The position numbers and the translations under genes were made by a program. Below the pieces are notes generated by a model. It made no database searches, had not been told where the DNA came from, and saw only the letters and a list, made by a program, of their open reading frames with translations. 64,000 bases of DNA from Spirochaeta thermophila DSM 6192 (lineage in GTDB: Bacteria > Spirochaetota > Spirochaetia > Winmispirales > Winmispiraceae), in the NCBI RefSeq assembly GCF_000147075.1, contig NC_014484.1, forward strand, positions 823,501 through 887,500, written 5' to 3'. This document shows, in pieces, positions 24,430 through 36,676 of this stretch. Positions within the stretch are counted from its first letter, which is position 1, and each line of letters opens with the position of its first letter.

Positions 24430-24486
24430 TCATTTCCAGAGGGTCATCCGATGATTAAGAGGGAGACCTTCCCAAAGGAGCCGCGT

Positions 24487-24978
24487 ATGGTAGTCCTGGC
24501 CCATATCATGGAGCGGACGCTCGAGCAGATGGTGAGAGTGTTGGATGAGATGCCCCATCTACAGGAGGAGCTGAGGAATGCACTCTTCGAGAGGGAGTGG
24601 GTCGGGGTTGAAGAAAAGGTAACGGCGCTCGTCCAGAAGAGCCAGGCCCTCCAGATGCTCGAAGAGGACAGGATGCGTGTCTATGCGGAGCTCCTCAGCG
24701 AGCTCGAACTCGCGCCCGACACGCCCCTCCGGACGGCCCTCAGATACATCGATCCGCCTGTGGCGCAGGGCATAGCGGATGTGGCCGGGCGTCTGCGGGA
24801 ACGATTGCTCAGGGTACGCGGCCTTGGTGAGGTGATCGCCAGGTATGCCGAAGCCTCCTATGCAACGGTGTACGCCTGCCTCAGGGAGCTCTTTCCCGAC
24901 CGGTTCCTGGGGGGATACGGCAAGGACGGGAGGAGGTCCCAGGGCGAGTCCTCTCTCCTCATAGATACGCGGCTTTAG
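24487..24978 (+). CDS. flgN: FlgN-like export chaperone for hook-associated proteins
   Basis: The protein has 163 residues, almost entirely helical and charged (for example MERTLEQMVRVLDEMPHLQEEL, VEEKVTALVQKSQALQMLEE), the style of FlgN. It lies directly before flgK, as flgN often does. FlgN binds the C-termini of FlgK and FlgL and keeps them export-competent. The sequence alone would not prove it; the location does most of the work. ATG 24487 is chosen because AAAGGAG stands six bases before it. An upstream in-frame ATG at 24451 would add 12 residues. Confidence 0.7.
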   Translation: MVVLAHIMERTLEQMVRVLDEMPHLQEELRNALFEREWVGVEEKVTALVQKSQALQMLEEDRMRVYAELLSELELAPDTPLRTALRYIDPPVAQGIADVAGRLRERLLRVRGLGEVIARYAEASYATVYACLRELFPDRFLGGYGKDGRRSQGESSLLIDTRL

Positions 24979-24988
24979 GAGGAAGGAA

Positions 24989-26863
24989 ATGCACTCTACG
25001 TTCATGAGCATAGAGATAGGGAAGCGTGGGCTCCTCGCGCACACACAGGGGCTCGCTACCGTGGGTCACAACATGAGCAATGCCTCCGTGGAAGGCTATT
25101 CGAGACAGCGGGTGAACCTCGAGGCCATGGATCCCCTCTACATGCCCGGACTCAATCGGGAGGAGACACCGGGACAGATAGGGCAGGGGGTTTCCATACA
25201 GTCGATCGAACGCATACGGGATGAAATACTCGAAGGCCGTATCGTGGCCCAGACCAATGTGGGCGGGTACTGGGAGACGAGGAACTCCTACCTCCTCATG
25301 GTGGAGAAGACCTACAACGAGCCTTCCGATGTCTCGGTACGGAGTCTCCTCGACGCCTTCTGGGATGCGTGGCAGGAACTCTCGATCCATCCGGACGAGA
25401 TGGCGGCCCGGCACGCCGTGATAGAGAATGCGAAGGCCCTGGTGGACGGAATACACGAACGGTATCGCGCACTCTCGAGCATACGAAAGATGATCGAAGA
25501 GGACGTACAGGCGACGGTGAAGGAGGTGAACGACTACATCGCCCGGATCGCCCACCTCAACGAACAGATCGTGAAGGTGAAGGCCATGGGTGACAATCCC
25601 AACGATCTCATGGATCGGAGGGACCTCTTGGTGGAGAAGCTCGCGAAGCTCATCAACGTCACCGTGGACACACGTGATCCGGACGAGTTCACCATCCATG
25701 TGGGGGGACGACATCTCGTCCAGGGGAAGGTGTATCATCCCTTCGCCCTCGACCCCAGGCCCCAGAACGAGGGATTCAGTGCCGTGCTCTGGGAGGGGAG
25801 TACGGAAGAGGTCCGCCTCGAAGGGGGCAAGCTCGCCGCCCTCCTCGAGCTCCGGGACGGTGACGTGAGGGGGGAGATACAGAAGCTCGATACCATGACC
25901 GTGAATCTGGTGAACCTCGTGAACGAGGTCCACAGGAACGCATATGGGCTCAACGGACAGACTGGAGTCGATTTCTTCGTGGAGCATCCGGCCGTCCTCA
26001 ACGCGGTGGGGAACTACGATCGCAACGGCGATGGAGAGTTCGACTCCACCTATCTCTTCCGTATCCACGGCACGAACCCACTCGATCCCAACGCCCAGGT
26101 GGGTATAGAGGGGGTCATCACCCTCTCGGGGGCCGAGGAGGATGTCCAGATCGCCTATTATCCCACTGATACGGTCCAGGATATCGTGAACCGCATCAAT
26201 ACCTCGGGAGCAGAGGTGAGCGCCTCGTTCGATCGTCTGGGGAGGCTCGTCCTCAAGGCAACCCCGAGTGAAGATGTGGCGTTCCCCGATTTCGTGATAC
26301 GCCACGTGGAGGATTCCGGACAGTTCCTTTCCGGCTATGCGGGGATCCTCGCGGGCAGCGGTCCCGAGAACGCCTACGATTGGGAGACCGTGGACGGGGT
26401 GCTCACCCTGAGGGGCGGTGCGGAGTACGGGGTGGCGCCTTTCGCACATCCTTCGGGCTGGGTGGTACTCAACCCGGAGGTGGAGCGGGATCCGGCGAGT
26501 GTGGCGGCGGGCTTCGGACAGGAGGGGAGGCCCGCGCCTCCGGGTGATGGATCGGCCGCCCTCGCCGTCGCGAACCTCAGGACCGAACCGGTGATGATAG
26601 GCAGACTCATGACCTTCGACGACTACTTCGCAGAGGCCGTCTCGGAGATAGGCCTCAAAGGACAGCAGGCCCAGATAGCGGACGAGACCCAGAAGCTCAT
26701 CATGAAAGATCTCAAGGATCTCAGGGAGAGTATCTCGGGAGTGAACATAGACGAGGAGCTCGCCCAGATGATCAAGTTCCAGCACGGATACGCGGCGAGT
26801 GCGCGTTTCATCACCACGTTCAATTCGATGCTGGATCTGCTCATCAACAGGATGGCGGTGTGA
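24989..26863 (+). CDS. flgK: Flagellar hook-associated protein FlgK
   Basis: The protein has 624 residues. The N-terminal rod/hook-type D0 segment is GLLAHTQGLATVGHNMSNAS followed by VEGYSRQRV (the ANxxTxGYxRQ motif). The C-terminal D0 segment is SGVNIDEELAQMIKFQHGY followed by AASARFITTFNSMLDLLINRM. FlgK forms the first junction ring between hook and filament. In spirochaetes this is in the periplasm. AGGAGGAAGGAA precedes the ATG. flgL follows after 10 bases. Confidence 0.97.
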   Translation: MHSTFMSIEIGKRGLLAHTQGLATVGHNMSNASVEGYSRQRVNLEAMDPLYMPGLNREETPGQIGQGVSIQSIERIRDEILEGRIVAQTNVGGYWETRNSYLLMVEKTYNEPSDVSVRSLLDAFWDAWQELSIHPDEMAARHAVIENAKALVDGIHERYRALSSIRKMIEEDVQATVKEVNDYIARIAHLNEQIVKVKAMGDNPNDLMDRRDLLVEKLAKLINVTVDTRDPDEFTIHVGGRHLVQGKVYHPFALDPRPQNEGFSAVLWEGSTEEVRLEGGKLAALLELRDGDVRGEIQKLDTMTVNLVNLVNEVHRNAYGLNGQTGVDFFVEHPAVLNAVGNYDRNGDGEFDSTYLFRIHGTNPLDPNAQVGIEGVITLSGAEEDVQIAYYPTDTVQDIVNRINTSGAEVSASFDRLGRLVLKATPSEDVAFPDFVIRHVEDSGQFLSGYAGILAGSGPENAYDWETVDGVLTLRGGAEYGVAPFAHPSGWVVLNPEVERDPASVAAGFGQEGRPAPPGDGSAALAVANLRTEPVMIGRLMTFDDYFAEAVSEIGLKGQQAQIADETQKLIMKDLKDLRESISGVNIDEELAQMIKFQHGYAASARFITTFNSMLDLLINRMAV

Positions 26864-26873
26864 GGAGGCGTAG

Positions 26874-28121
26874 ATGAATCGGATCAGTACCAACATGCCC
26901 AATGACGACATGGTCTACCACCTCCAGAAGCGGGAACGGGCCCTCTACAGGGTACAGAACCGTATGTCCTCCCAGACGAGGATCCAGGACCTGAGGGACG
27001 ACCCCGTGGGGGCGGCCCACGCGGTGCGTTATGACTCCTTCCTCACGCGCCTCACACGTTACGGGGAGAACATAGCGTACGTGCAGGACTACTACAATGT
27101 GGTGGAAGGCCATCTCAAGGAAGGGGTGGAGATCGTCCAGCGGATCAGGGAGCTCACGGTACAGGCGGCACACGGGACCTACACCCCAGAGGACCTCAAG
27201 GCCATGGGGAAGGAAGTCGATGAACTCCTCGAGCAGCTCGTCCAGATCGCGAATGCCCGTGGCCCCGAAGGGCGGTTCCTCTTCGGAGGGGCGCGGACGA
27301 GGGGGGAGCCGTTCCGGGTGGTACGCGGGAACGTCCCCGGGGCCGACGATCTGCTCATCACGGGTGTCGAATACATCGGGGATATCACGGAAAAGCAGAC
27401 AGAGATCGCGGAGGGTGCCTTCATCACCACCGGTTTCTCGGGAAACTTCGTATTCGGGGCCCAGCAACAGCAGGTGTATGCCACCATCGACGCGCTTGAC
27501 TACAGGGTGGGAGAAGCCGGATATTTTTCTATAGATGGAGTGCGTATCGACGTGACCGAAGGTGATACCCTCTATTCCATCGTGCAGAAGATAAACGATT
27601 CAGCCGCTCCCGTGAGGGCGAGGATAGATCCGGTGAACCACTCCCTCATCCTGGAGACGACGGTACCTCACCAGTTGTGGATGGAAGACGGGGAAGGGAG
27701 CGTACTCCAGGATCTCGGGATCATCGCTCCTCCGGATGTTCACCGTCCGCCCGGCAACATTGCGGCCTCCGCTGTCCACGGAGGTGGTTCCCTCTTCGAC
27801 GTGGTGATGCGTGTGAGGGATGCCATGATGGTGGGCGATCAGGAGGCCTTGGGAGGAAGGGGACTCGGTATGATCGATGAGGCCCTCTCCGCCCTCGTGG
27901 GGAAGATGGGTGAGATAGGCGCGCGGGGGACGAGGCTCAGATTCGCCTATGCTCACAATCAGGAGGAGATCCCGGATGTGACGGAACTCTATGCGAAGCG
28001 GGTGGATCTCGATGTTTCCGAGGCCATCATCGAGCTCAAGCGACTGGAATACACGCACAAGGCGGCCCTCTCGACGGCTGCGCGTATTCTACCGCCTACA
28101 CTTCTCGATTTTCTGAGGTGA
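26874..28121 (+). CDS. flgL: Flagellar hook-associated protein FlgL
   Basis: The protein has 415 residues. It has flagellin-like termini: an N-terminal NRISTNMPNDDMVYHLQKRE and QTRIQDLRDDPVGAAHAVRY, and a C-terminal ELYAKRVDLDVSEAIIELKR followed by LEYTHKAALSTAARIL. The middle, with TGFSGNFVFGAQQQQVYATIDA, is a variable surface domain. It forms the second junction ring, on which the FlaB filament starts. AGGAGGCGTAG precedes the ATG. Its stop overlaps the start region of fliW. Confidence 0.95.
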   Translation: MNRISTNMPNDDMVYHLQKRERALYRVQNRMSSQTRIQDLRDDPVGAAHAVRYDSFLTRLTRYGENIAYVQDYYNVVEGHLKEGVEIVQRIRELTVQAAHGTYTPEDLKAMGKEVDELLEQLVQIANARGPEGRFLFGGARTRGEPFRVVRGNVPGADDLLITGVEYIGDITEKQTEIAEGAFITTGFSGNFVFGAQQQQVYATIDALDYRVGEAGYFSIDGVRIDVTEGDTLYSIVQKINDSAAPVRARIDPVNHSLILETTVPHQLWMEDGEGSVLQDLGIIAPPDVHRPPGNIAASAVHGGGSLFDVVMRVRDAMMVGDQEALGGRGLGMIDEALSALVGKMGEIGARGTRLRFAYAHNQEEIPDVTELYAKRVDLDVSEAIIELKRLEYTHKAALSTAARILPPTLLDFLR

Positions 28122-28123
28122 CG

Positions 28124-28576
28124 ATGGGGACGGTGACGATTGACACGCGCCCATATGGGCCACTGACCGTTGACGAACGACAGATCCTCACCTTTGTGAA
28201 CGGGCTCTTCGGGTTCGAGCACCTCACCCGGTACGCCCTTCTCGACTCGCATCAGCCTCCCTTCTACTGGCTTCAGTCTCTCGAGGACCCCCAGGTGGCC
28301 TTCGTGGTGATAGATCCTCGCGTCTTCAGACCCGATTACGATCCTGCACCCCTTCCTTCCGATCTCGAGGCGCTTGGGCTGGAACGGCAGGAGGACCTCC
28401 TGATCTTCGCGATCGTCACGATTCCCGAGAACCAGAGGGAGATGACGGCCAACCTGCAAGGCCCCCTGCTCGTCAACAGGAAGACGCGTCGGGCCGCTCA
28501 GGTGATCAGTACCGACGACAGGTGGCATGTCAAACACAGGATCCTGGAAGAGCTTGCGGCCCTGAGGAAGAGATAA
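28124..28576 (+). CDS. fliW: Flagellar assembly factor FliW
   Basis: The protein has about 150 residues. The family pattern is clear: [44 protein letters not shown]-like [20 protein letters not shown] and [14 protein letters not shown]. FliW binds free flagellin and, when released from it, sequesters CsrA, so that flagellin synthesis follows secretion. The ATG at 28124 has GAGGTG three bases upstream; a GTG at 28118 overlapping the flgL stop is an alternative. csrA begins one base inside its stop (TAATG), the usual fliW-csrA pairing. Confidence 0.95.
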
Positions 28577-28809
28577 TGCTGGTCTTGAGCAGGAAGAAGA
28601 ACGAGAGCATCATCATCGCAGACAATATAGAGGTCCGCGTGGTGGATATCCGCGGAGACCAGGTGAAGATCGGGATCTCCGCCCCACCTCAGATCAAGAT
28701 CTACCGGGAAGAGGTGTATCGTGCCATCCAGGAGGAGAACCGTTCGGCTCTGAGCGTCTCCAGGGAGATTCCCTCCCTCGATGATCTCCTGGGCGACGAC
28801 GCGCCTTAA
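28576..28809 (+). CDS. csrA: Carbon storage regulator CsrA
   Basis: The protein has 77 residues. It begins [14 protein letters not shown] with the conserved R6 region, then [20 protein letters not shown] and [14 protein letters not shown], the standard CsrA fold. CsrA dimers bind GGA motifs in mRNA leaders and block translation; in Bacillus subtilis and Borrelia flagellin mRNA is a target. The start overlaps the fliW stop. The stop shares TTAA (28806-28809) with the stop of the convergent tsaB. Both flagellin leaders nearby carry candidate binding sites. Confidence 0.97.
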
Positions 28810-35486: not shown

Positions 35487-35588
35487 CCTCCCTGTATAGA
35501 GAGACTTCTGGAAAGGCGATCCCTGCCTTTCCCCCGGACGTACCGTCCGGTTATATACGTGAAGGAGTGCCCGGGTGGGATCCCGGGC
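35487..35588 (-). promoter_or_regulatory. Structured leader between the flagellin genes with CsrA-like sites
   Basis: Three stem-loops follow one another on the minus strand: 35588-35569 (7 bp, GCCCGGG/CCCGGGC), 35550-35534 (7 bp, CCGGACG/CGTCCGG) and 35532-35510 (8 bp, GGAAAGGC/GCCTTTCC with loop AGGGATC). ATACAGGGA at 35497-35489 matches the CsrA consensus RUACARGGA exactly and overlaps the Shine-Dalgarno of the next flaB. The hairpin loop supplies a second GGA. Confidence 0.65.
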
Positions 35589-35650
35589 CCCCTTGAAGAG
35601 ACATCCCCTGGAGGGTGGACTTTTCAAAGAGCTACTACAATTTTACTCCA

Positions 35651-36508
35651 TCATCCGAAAAGTTGCAACACCGATTGTGTCTTGGTGTTGGCCTGCGCGA
35701 GCATGGCGGTGGAGGCCTGGAGCAGGATCTGGTTCTTGGTGTAATCCACCATTTCGGCTGCCATGTTGAGGTCCCGGATGCGCGATTCGGCGGCCTGGAG
35801 ATTTTCGGCACCGATGTCGAGTCCCTTCATCGCATGTTCGAGCCTCGTCTGGTAGGCACCGAGATCCGCCCGCTGCTTGTTCACCTTCTTGAGGGCGAGA
35901 TCGATGACGCCGATGGCGCGGTTGGCGCTCTCGGGATCGGCGAGAGAGATCGGGGTGTTGTCGGCGTTCTTCATCTGGAGAGCCGCCGCGGTCATGGTAC
36001 CGATGTACACCCGTTCCCTCTGATCCATGTTGGCGCCGATGTGGAACCAGATGCTGGCCGTGACCACATTCTCCCCTTCCTCCCGAGCGAAGCGGCCAGT
36101 GAGCAGGTTCATCCCGTTGAACTGGGCGTGGGATGCGATCCTGTCGATCTCGTCCACGAGCTGGGAGACCTCCACCTGGATCTGCATCCTGTCCTCTTCG
36201 CTGTAGATCCCGTTGGCCGCCTGGACCGCGAGTTCCCTCAGACGCTGGAGGATGTCCTGCGTGTTCTGGAGGAATCCTTCGGCAGTCTGGATGAAGGAGA
36301 TGCCGTCCTGGGCGTTCCGGGATGCCTGCTTGAGGCCTCGTATCTGGGAACGCATCTTCTCGGAGATGGCGAGTCCCGCTGCATCGTCGGCCGCACGGGT
36401 GATCCTGAGGCCGGAGGAGAGTTTCTCCATGTTCTTGCTCAGGTCGAGATCGACGATCCCGTGTTGCCTCTGAGCGAACATGGCGCTGAGGTTGTGGTTG
36501 ATAATCAT
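35651..36508 (-). CDS. flaB: Flagellin FlaB (second by position, promoter-proximal)
   Basis: The protein has 285 residues. It begins [20 protein letters not shown] and contains [31 protein letters not shown] and a C-terminal [16 protein letters not shown]. The start at 36508 is set by the family N-terminus and GGAGGAAGG; the frame stays open upstream. It is the first gene behind the sigma-28 promoter at 36649-36676. Two copies differing mainly in the middle suggest a mixed filament core, as in other spirochaetes with several FlaB proteins. Confidence 0.97.
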
Positions 36509-36631
36509 ACCTTCCTCCATGAATGGTGTAGTGGTCCGGGCGTCCATGCCCGGAAAATTTTCGCTCATGTCGGCACGCCGGCATACCGACACTACGAATA
36601 GGAGAGCCCCTGCCTTTGACCTTCCTCCATG
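36509..36631 (-). promoter_or_regulatory. Leader of the first flaB gene: duplicated SD block and GGA-loop hairpin
   Basis: CATGGAGGAAGGT (minus strand) occurs twice, at 36631-36619 near the transcript start and at 36521-36509 over the Shine-Dalgarno. Between them are a 9-bp stem with two G-U pairs (36590-36569) and a 6-bp hairpin CCGGGC-ATGGAC-GCCCGG (36553-36536). The latter's hexaloop presents GGA as in structured CsrA sites. Confidence 0.6.
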
Positions 36632-36648
36632 GCAGAAGCCTCACTCTC

Positions 36649-36676
36649 TTATCGACGAGGAGGGGTATAACTTTTA
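36649..36676 (-). promoter_or_regulatory. Sigma-28-type promoter of the flagellin operon
   Basis: On the minus strand TAAA (36676-36673), 16 bases, GTCGATAA (36656-36649). The -10 matches seven of eight FliA-type positions. The transcript would start near 36642, about 134 bases before flaB. Confidence 0.75.

Follow-up and report, generated by a model that had tools for sequence, protein, structure and literature searches.

Candidate two-site CsrA operators in the flagellin leaders of Spirochaeta thermophila and other Spirochaetota

The filaments of spirochaetes mostly contain several flagellins (PMC9481697, in the part available), and how the supply of these subunits is matched to their assembly is not well understood. 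The flagellar locus of Spirochaeta thermophila DSM 6192 poses this question in a concrete form: two flagellin genes lie there a few kilobases from fliW and csrA, and a preliminary description of the locus proposed that both flagellin leaders carry CsrA-type sites. Do these leaders have the makings of CsrA operators, and is the arrangement shared by their relatives?

The flagellin locus and its two leaders

Throughout, the window denotes the entire 64,000-nucleotide stretch that was analysed, and all coordinates refer to it. Two flagellin genes, both recognised by the Pfam domains PF00669 and PF00700, are located on its minus strand, flaB-A (285 amino acids, 36508-35651) and flaB-B (282 amino acids, 35481-34633), along with flaG (34566-34237) and fliD (34212-32197), which were identified with Pfam as well. 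The plus strand carries the gene run flgN-flgK-flgL-fliW-csrA (24451-28809), also assigned with Pfam, where the flgN match does not reach the Pfam cut-off and the name flgL comes from flagellin-N and hook-IN domains plus the gene position. The last two genes of this run are fliW (28118-28576; PF02623, E 1e-41), encoding the presumed CsrA antagonist and flagellin partner, and csrA (28576-28809; PF02599, E 1.4e-25), encoding the presumed repressor; fliW terminates in TAATG, with a one-base overlap with the csrA start. The distances to the two flaB start codons are 6.7 and 7.7 kb, in agreement with the fliW-csrA operon that had been placed about 7 kb from the flagellin genes.

The whole genome contains one csrA match and three flagellin matches. 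The nearest solved chain for FliW is 5dmb_A, from an entry that also contains a CsrA chain, and the nearest solved chains for CsrA are 1t3o and 5dmb. The alignment of CsrA with the solved CsrA 1y00 is free of gaps over residues 1-56 and retains L4 and R44, which we take to be the RNA-binding residues, so that the genome encodes FliW together with a CsrA in which these residues are intact. Upstream of flaB-A, a sigma-28-like promoter, TAAA-N16-GTCGATAA, was detected by pattern match (36676-36649, minus strand); this is the single match to the pattern in the window, compared with 0.03 expected, which makes a leader of about 134 nt (leader A) plausible.

The candidate upstream CsrA-type site of leader A is the hairpin TCCGGGC-ATGGAC-GCCCGGA (36554-36535, minus strand), a hexaloop ATGGAC with the loop GGA at 36545-36543. 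This is the GGA-presenting hexaloop hairpin previously reported at 36536-36553, and it is recovered in both the minimum-energy and the centroid folds of the entire leader. Folded alone, it has a predicted energy of -14.4 kcal/mol, equalled by one of 200 shuffles, and none of 200 shuffles is as stable as the entire leader (z -3.66). The second CsrA-type site is the Shine-Dalgarno (SD) block ATGGAGGAAGGT, in a CANGGAGG context (36520-36509, minus strand), ahead of the ATG that starts at 36508; the hairpin GGA and the SD GGA are 24 nt apart. Altogether, leader A has three ATGGA sites. Its predicted 5' hairpin, H1 (36602-36642, minus strand), provides one or more additional candidate CsrA sites, with a loop that contains an exact 12-base duplicate of the SD block (36630-36619, minus strand); the SD itself and the H1 loop are the only two exact copies of this block in the window. 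An uninterrupted frame of 28 codons, in phase with flaB-A, also runs through leader A from a GTG at 36592 (36508-36592, minus strand), with in-frame ATGs in the hexaloop and in the SD block; a start at 36508 is consistent with the flagellin family.

In leader B, the upstream candidate site is the hairpin GGAAAGGC-AGGGATC-GCCTTTCC (35532-35510, minus strand), with the heptaloop AGGGATC, as had been described; it is present within the predicted minimum-energy fold. Over the SD lies ATACAGGGAGGG (35497-35486, minus strand), which includes ATACAGGGA (35497-35489), and the start codon ATG follows from 35481. The two GGAs are 28 nt apart, so that each window leader combines a GGA site over the SD with a second GGA located in a predicted hairpin loop at a bridging distance. 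By itself, the leader B hairpin is not striking (z -1.54, with 16 of 200 shuffles as good); for the entire leader, z is -2.27, with 4 of 200 shuffles as stable. The exact match to RUACARGGA over the flaB-B SD, to which the preliminary description drew attention, is indeed present but is no evidence alone and was rejected as such, RTACARGGA occurring twice in the window compared with 0.91 expected. Given that this hairpin is unremarkable and that the motif is expected about once per window, the two-site CsrA claim is only suggestive when judged from the window sequence alone.

Two further hairpins, located between flaB-A and flaB-B (35569-35588 and 35534-35550, minus strand), have neither a GGA in the loop nor a U-run downstream and could be processing or attenuation elements. 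At the Rfam gathering score, the leaders have no match; the only sub-threshold match, to an antisense family (E 0.24), falls within the coding sequence of flaB-B.

Conservation and spread of the leader element

Relatives were drawn from the best 80 matches to FlaB-A among the matches listed, mostly metagenome bins, and 140 tblastn matches yielded 132 distinct leaders in 100 non-redundant clusters, again among the matches listed. Between -100 and -14, 82 of these 100 spirochaete flagellin leaders have a hairpin of 5 bp or more whose loop contains GGA, compared with means of 12.75 (maximum 18) in dinucleotide shuffles and 13.2 (maximum 19) in windows drawn at random from the same loci. For ANGGA loops, the corresponding numbers are 59 of 100 leaders, 1.2 (maximum 4) and 3.25 (maximum 6). 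The SD is distinctive as well: ANGGA spans it in 99 of 100 flagellin leaders compared with 20 of 89 control genes, and CANGGA in 81 of 100 compared with 4 of 89, the controls being those with a GGA near the start among 104 crude ORF calls from the same loci and the window. This excess argues that the SD region of flagellin genes is a CsrA-type site and not merely a ribosome-binding sequence.

The upstream site was also chosen blind to structure, as a GGA 14-34 nt upstream of the SD GGA, which is present in 87 of the 100 leaders. These 87 sites have the consensus GGC-A-N-GGA-U-GCC, and 73 of them carry A at -2. Standard pairs occur at positions -5/+6, -6/+7, -7/+8 and -8/+9 in 74, 68, 63 and 58 leaders, respectively, exceeding in each case the maximum of 500 column shuffles (65, 58, 47 and 44), with five or six pair types at each (five at -7/+8). 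The pairs -3/+4 (58, shuffle maximum 64), -4/+5 (49, maximum 53) and -9/+10 (47, maximum 48) do not exceed the shuffles, and the covariation in these 87 leaders, selected without a structure filter, lies in one register. A smaller alignment, A1 (66 rows: 64 of 84 listed loci and the two window leaders), has a covariation of 0.445 compared with 0.188, with none of 500 shuffles as high and every slid register lower; its rows were picked by eye for the short-spaced form, so that this score, and the model derived from A1, lean towards structure. Both in the leaders selected by spacing and in the hand-filtered set, the structure is conserved by compensatory change.

The phylum consensus, GGCANGGAUGCC followed by CANGGAGG, fits the known binding site of CsrA. 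Together with the SD context, it agrees with the CsrA consensus RUACARGGAUGU (PMC8668096, in part) and with CANGGANG hexaloops, which are given as high-affinity CsrA sites in the accessible text of PMC4894983. The same text gives 18 nt as the optimal spacing for one CsrA dimer and 21 nt for Campylobacter jejuni flaA; in 52 of the 82 hairpin-bearing leaders, the two GGAs are separated by 18-24 nt, close to both values.

The closest relatives share the arrangement. Over their last 100 nt, the flaB-A and flaB-B leaders of another genome of the same genus (G002) do not differ from those of the window, and the two sets were merged. Only one other genus of the family was compared (G001), and its leaders have diverged from those of the window; the flaB-A leader reads TGGGC-AAGGAA-GCCCA followed by ATGGAGGATGG, and the flaB-B leader AAAAGGC-AAGGAT-GCCTTTT followed by TTCAGGGAGGG. 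This genome retains fliW, csrA and both layouts, and thus the loss of motifs and hairpins from close relatives that keep fliW-csrA, which had been named as grounds for giving up the proposal, is not observed. The third flagellin gene, elsewhere in the S. thermophila genome, has the same leader layout. At the position of H1, a GGA-rich segment flanked by complementary arms is visible by eye in G001. Additional distal GGA hairpins were considered as a phylum-wide trait and rejected, being present in 27 of 99 leaders compared with 26.5 in shuffles; the hairpin with the SD copy is therefore claimed for the window and, loosely, for G001 only.

A covariance model, R1, was trained on A1, including the two window leaders, which match by construction with 44.8 (leader A) and 34.2 bits (leader B); nothing else in the window scores above 10.9. 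Across the three genomes of the order, the nine best R1 matches are the nine flagellin genes (34-51 bits; next best, 20.8), of which the two in the window and the three of G001 were used for training and the first two of G002 are near copies; the third S. thermophila flagellin, outside the training set, scores 38.5 bits. The best non-flagellin matches in these genomes (17.1, 18.0 and 20.8 bits) were rejected as further operators, with no GGA-loop hairpin; the genes that follow them are YggT-like, unnamed and ABC-transporter-like (names and hairpins judged by eye).

Across 247 genomes sampled evenly from the phylum, R1 matches are found in 221, csrA in 226, fliW in 226 and flagellin in 238; the genomes in this sample and in the next may share species with A1. 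The placement of the element was examined in 38 genomes, each from a different family and all preselected for an R1 match, so that 36 of 38 is not a rate and only the positions of the 88 matches are informative. Of these, 80 coincide exactly with flagellin starts and so account for 80 of the 135 listed flagellins. Three more precede flagellar genes, namely flgN (L157 and L160, in G038 and G067) and a FlgL-like gene (L158, in G053), and the remaining five are located before genes for an AraC-type regulator, a piece of an oxidoreductase and FeoB, before a gene whose DUF2062 match is weak and before an ORF with no family assigned. An element-like match of 28.5 bits (L155:107-388) is located before a 94-amino-acid ORF without a Pfam match. 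In G067, flgN lies about 3.4 kb upstream of the fliW match, on the same contig and strand, which suggests CsrA feedback on the fliW-csrA operon through the flgN element in some lineages. Upstream of flgN in the S. thermophila window, no element was seen (fold z-score 0.73).

Among the 182 genomes that are at least 90% complete and at most 5% contaminated, seven lack a flagellin match (G146, G221, G224, G226, G234, G237 and G239), and all seven also lack csrA, fliW and R1 matches, which suggests that csrA is tied to flagella in Spirochaetota.

The element is not universal. No R1 match was obtained in 26 of the 247 genomes, yet just nine lack a flagellin match, and 55 of the 135 flagellins in the 38-genome set lack an R1 match. 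R1 misses a long-spaced form, where a second hairpin and, after it, GCCAAAGGAGU lie downstream of the GGCANGGAUGCC hairpin; a model of this variant, R2, built on the alignment A2 (16 of 20 long-spaced leaders), produced no match in 22 genomes and had no positive control. Leaders were also read directly at those of 17 loci with a recognised start. In six R1-negative genomes of genus g6, one of the two fetched leaders has the loop AAAGGAT ahead of CACGGAGGA or CATGGAGGA, and the other is without a GGA-loop hairpin (L142, L144, L146, L149, L151 and L153). In family f4, a hairpin with the loop ATGGAT is predicted at a longer spacing in two of three leaders (L130 and L131) and is absent from the minimum-energy fold of the third (L129), and no GGA-loop hairpin was seen in G019 and G056 (f28), where four leaders were readable.

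Conversely, csrA was not found in 12 genomes with an R1 match, four of which are at least 90% complete (G212, G025, G083 and G179). Because fliW is missing from the same 12 genomes, and because in G184, which lacks csrA only, fliW sits at a contig edge, assembly gaps are a likely, if unproven, cause. In G212, which is 99% complete, three flagellins and two matches to the element are present but neither csrA nor fliW is matched; this reflects either an assembly gap or real loss.

Two paralogue classes with different sites

The preliminary description noted that the two window flagellins differ in site architecture, and this turns out to be a conserved difference between paralogues among the relatives. 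When flagellins are classified by protein similarity, the A/C-type leaders comprise 52 with a hexaloop, five with a heptaloop and 12 without a hairpin, and the B-type leaders four, 20 and six, respectively, loops of less than 6 nt having been widened by opening the closing pairs. The SD differs in parallel: among the 69 A/C-type leaders, it is GGAGGA in 49, GGAGGG in none and another sequence in 20, compared with GGAGGA in three and GGAGGG in 27 of the 30 B-type leaders. The window leaders follow this rule, with a hexaloop in A and a heptaloop in B; the flaB-B leader of G001, with a loop readable as the hexaloop AAGGAT, breaks it.

In a protein tree of 99 flagellins (one of the 100 leaders, with a short protein, was left out), the classes correspond to one split, the SD type changes four times and the loop size nine times, compared with a mean of 21.7 loop-size changes in shuffles and none as low in 500. 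The association between loop size and flagellin class (Fisher p 8.6e-11) overstates independence, since the classes are one split and the changes on the tree are few. The difference in loop and SD therefore reads, from these sequences, as an old, retained difference between paralogues and not as the product of many independent origins.

Proposed mechanism, alternatives and known systems

Very probably, both flaB leaders are two-site CsrA operators at which CsrA blocks translation and FliW releases it, with feedback from flagellin export. The hag-like, two-site layout suggested at the outset is supported in that the sites and their arrangement match those of CsrA targets proven elsewhere. One face of a CsrA dimer would hold the GGA of the hairpin loop and the other face the GGA of the SD, and this clamp would keep ribosomes from loading, so that flagellin would not be translated. 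FliW, encoded beside csrA, would capture free CsrA and thereby release the mRNA, whereas cytoplasmic flagellin would tie up FliW. Flagellin would then probably be made only when FliW is free, and because flagellin would sequester FliW, its synthesis would follow its export into the filament.

Could these features arise without such a mechanism? The genome is rich in purines and in GC, GGA and GC-rich hairpins are common in it and most SDs contain GGA; in the window, 10 of 41 control genes have a GGA hairpin and five of 41 an ANGGA hairpin, and, as noted above, the RTACARGGA match alone is expected at random. Chance is nevertheless barely credible as an explanation, given the conservation, covariation, spacing and SD context in the relatives, and given that the excess over shuffles, same-locus windows and control genes stands. 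The hairpin might instead serve another protein or process, such as protection from RNase, ribosome standby or transcription attenuation, with no link to CsrA. Stable 5' hairpins can protect mRNA, and leaders A and B both contain additional hairpins without GGA in the loop; the conserved letters in and around the loop, however, fit a CsrA site, while the outer stem varies with compensation, so that a role unconnected with CsrA appears very unlikely. The joint absence of the element, csrA and fliW from all seven genomes without flagellin fits CsrA too, although it is expected of any flagellar gene.

The alternative with the most going for it, still an unlikely one, is that CsrA does bind the leaders but has a mostly stabilising or activating effect on the mRNA, or that flagellin mRNA chiefly serves other flagellar genes as a CsrA sponge. 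The three ATGGA sites of leader A are compatible with such a role, the C. jejuni flaA leader titrates CsrA (PMC4894983, in part), and csrA overexpression in Leptospira interrogans was accompanied by a rise in flaB transcripts, according to the part of PMC8668096 that was available. That one site coincides with the SD in 99 of 100 leaders favours, rather, a direct block of ribosome loading.

Under the repression reading, a conserved, recognisable CsrA operator offers a direct handle on flagellin mRNAs, and the paralogue-linked difference in loop and SD predicts graded repression of the FlaB subunits, whose strength may thus differ between A and B. In some lineages, the element points to targets other than flagellin, namely flgN and a FlgL-like gene; in the S. 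thermophila window, flgN and flgL share the operon with fliW and csrA. A wider scheme can be put forward tentatively, as a conjecture that has somewhat more against it than for it: much of the phylum would share a flagellin-leader CsrA operator, serving chiefly flagellin genes, in two paralogue grades (hexaloop with GGAGGA and heptaloop with GGAGGG), a single CsrA-FliW pool would set the order or ratio in which the FlaB subunits of the mixed periplasmic filament are produced, and the decoy SD copy would make leader A the strongest CsrA sink.

Control of flagellin by CsrA and FliW is of a known kind, in spirochaetes too. CsrA binds sites of this type, it represses both hag and flaA by occupying the SD, and FliW is its antagonist (PMC7652899, PMC6529632 and PMC4894983, each in part). 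In the open-access full-text literature, as far as it was available, no shared spirochaete flagellin leader element was found, and the two-site element, its covariation and its paralogue grades appear to be undescribed. The accessible portions of PMC9481697 and PMC8668096 cite CsrA as a repressor of Borrelia burgdorferi flaB, with sites that overlap the SD; the presumed Borrelia family, f4, resembles S. thermophila in the upstream loop hairpin, present in the predicted fold in two of three genomes, and differs in having one flagellin match per genome and a longer spacing. CsrA sites near the SD are described for Treponema denticola flaB1 and flaB2 (PMC9481697, in part), and the Leptospira flaB3 and flaB4 leaders were bound by CsrA in gel shifts (PMC8668096, in part). 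The likeness extends to the flgN-flgK-flgL-fliW-csrA operon; the available sections of these two reports describe SD sites but no two-site element shared across the phylum.

Bacillus subtilis hag is similar: of its two CsrA sites, one covers the SD, the genome has both fliW and csrA, and flagellin mRNA is the target (PMC7652899 and PMC6529632, in part). S. thermophila, by contrast, has three flagellins, a loop and SD linked to the paralogue and a predicted hairpin with an SD copy in leader A. The C. jejuni flaA leader shares an ANGGA hairpin loop and an ANGGA over the ribosome site, compensatory changes, FliW as the antagonist and sigma-28 transcription, according to the accessible text of PMC4894983; in that text, the leader is 45 nt long, its two sites are spaced by 21 nt and the SD itself lies in a hairpin loop, in contrast to S. 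thermophila, where leader A is about 134 nt long and contains other hairpins, and the spacings are 24 and 28 nt.
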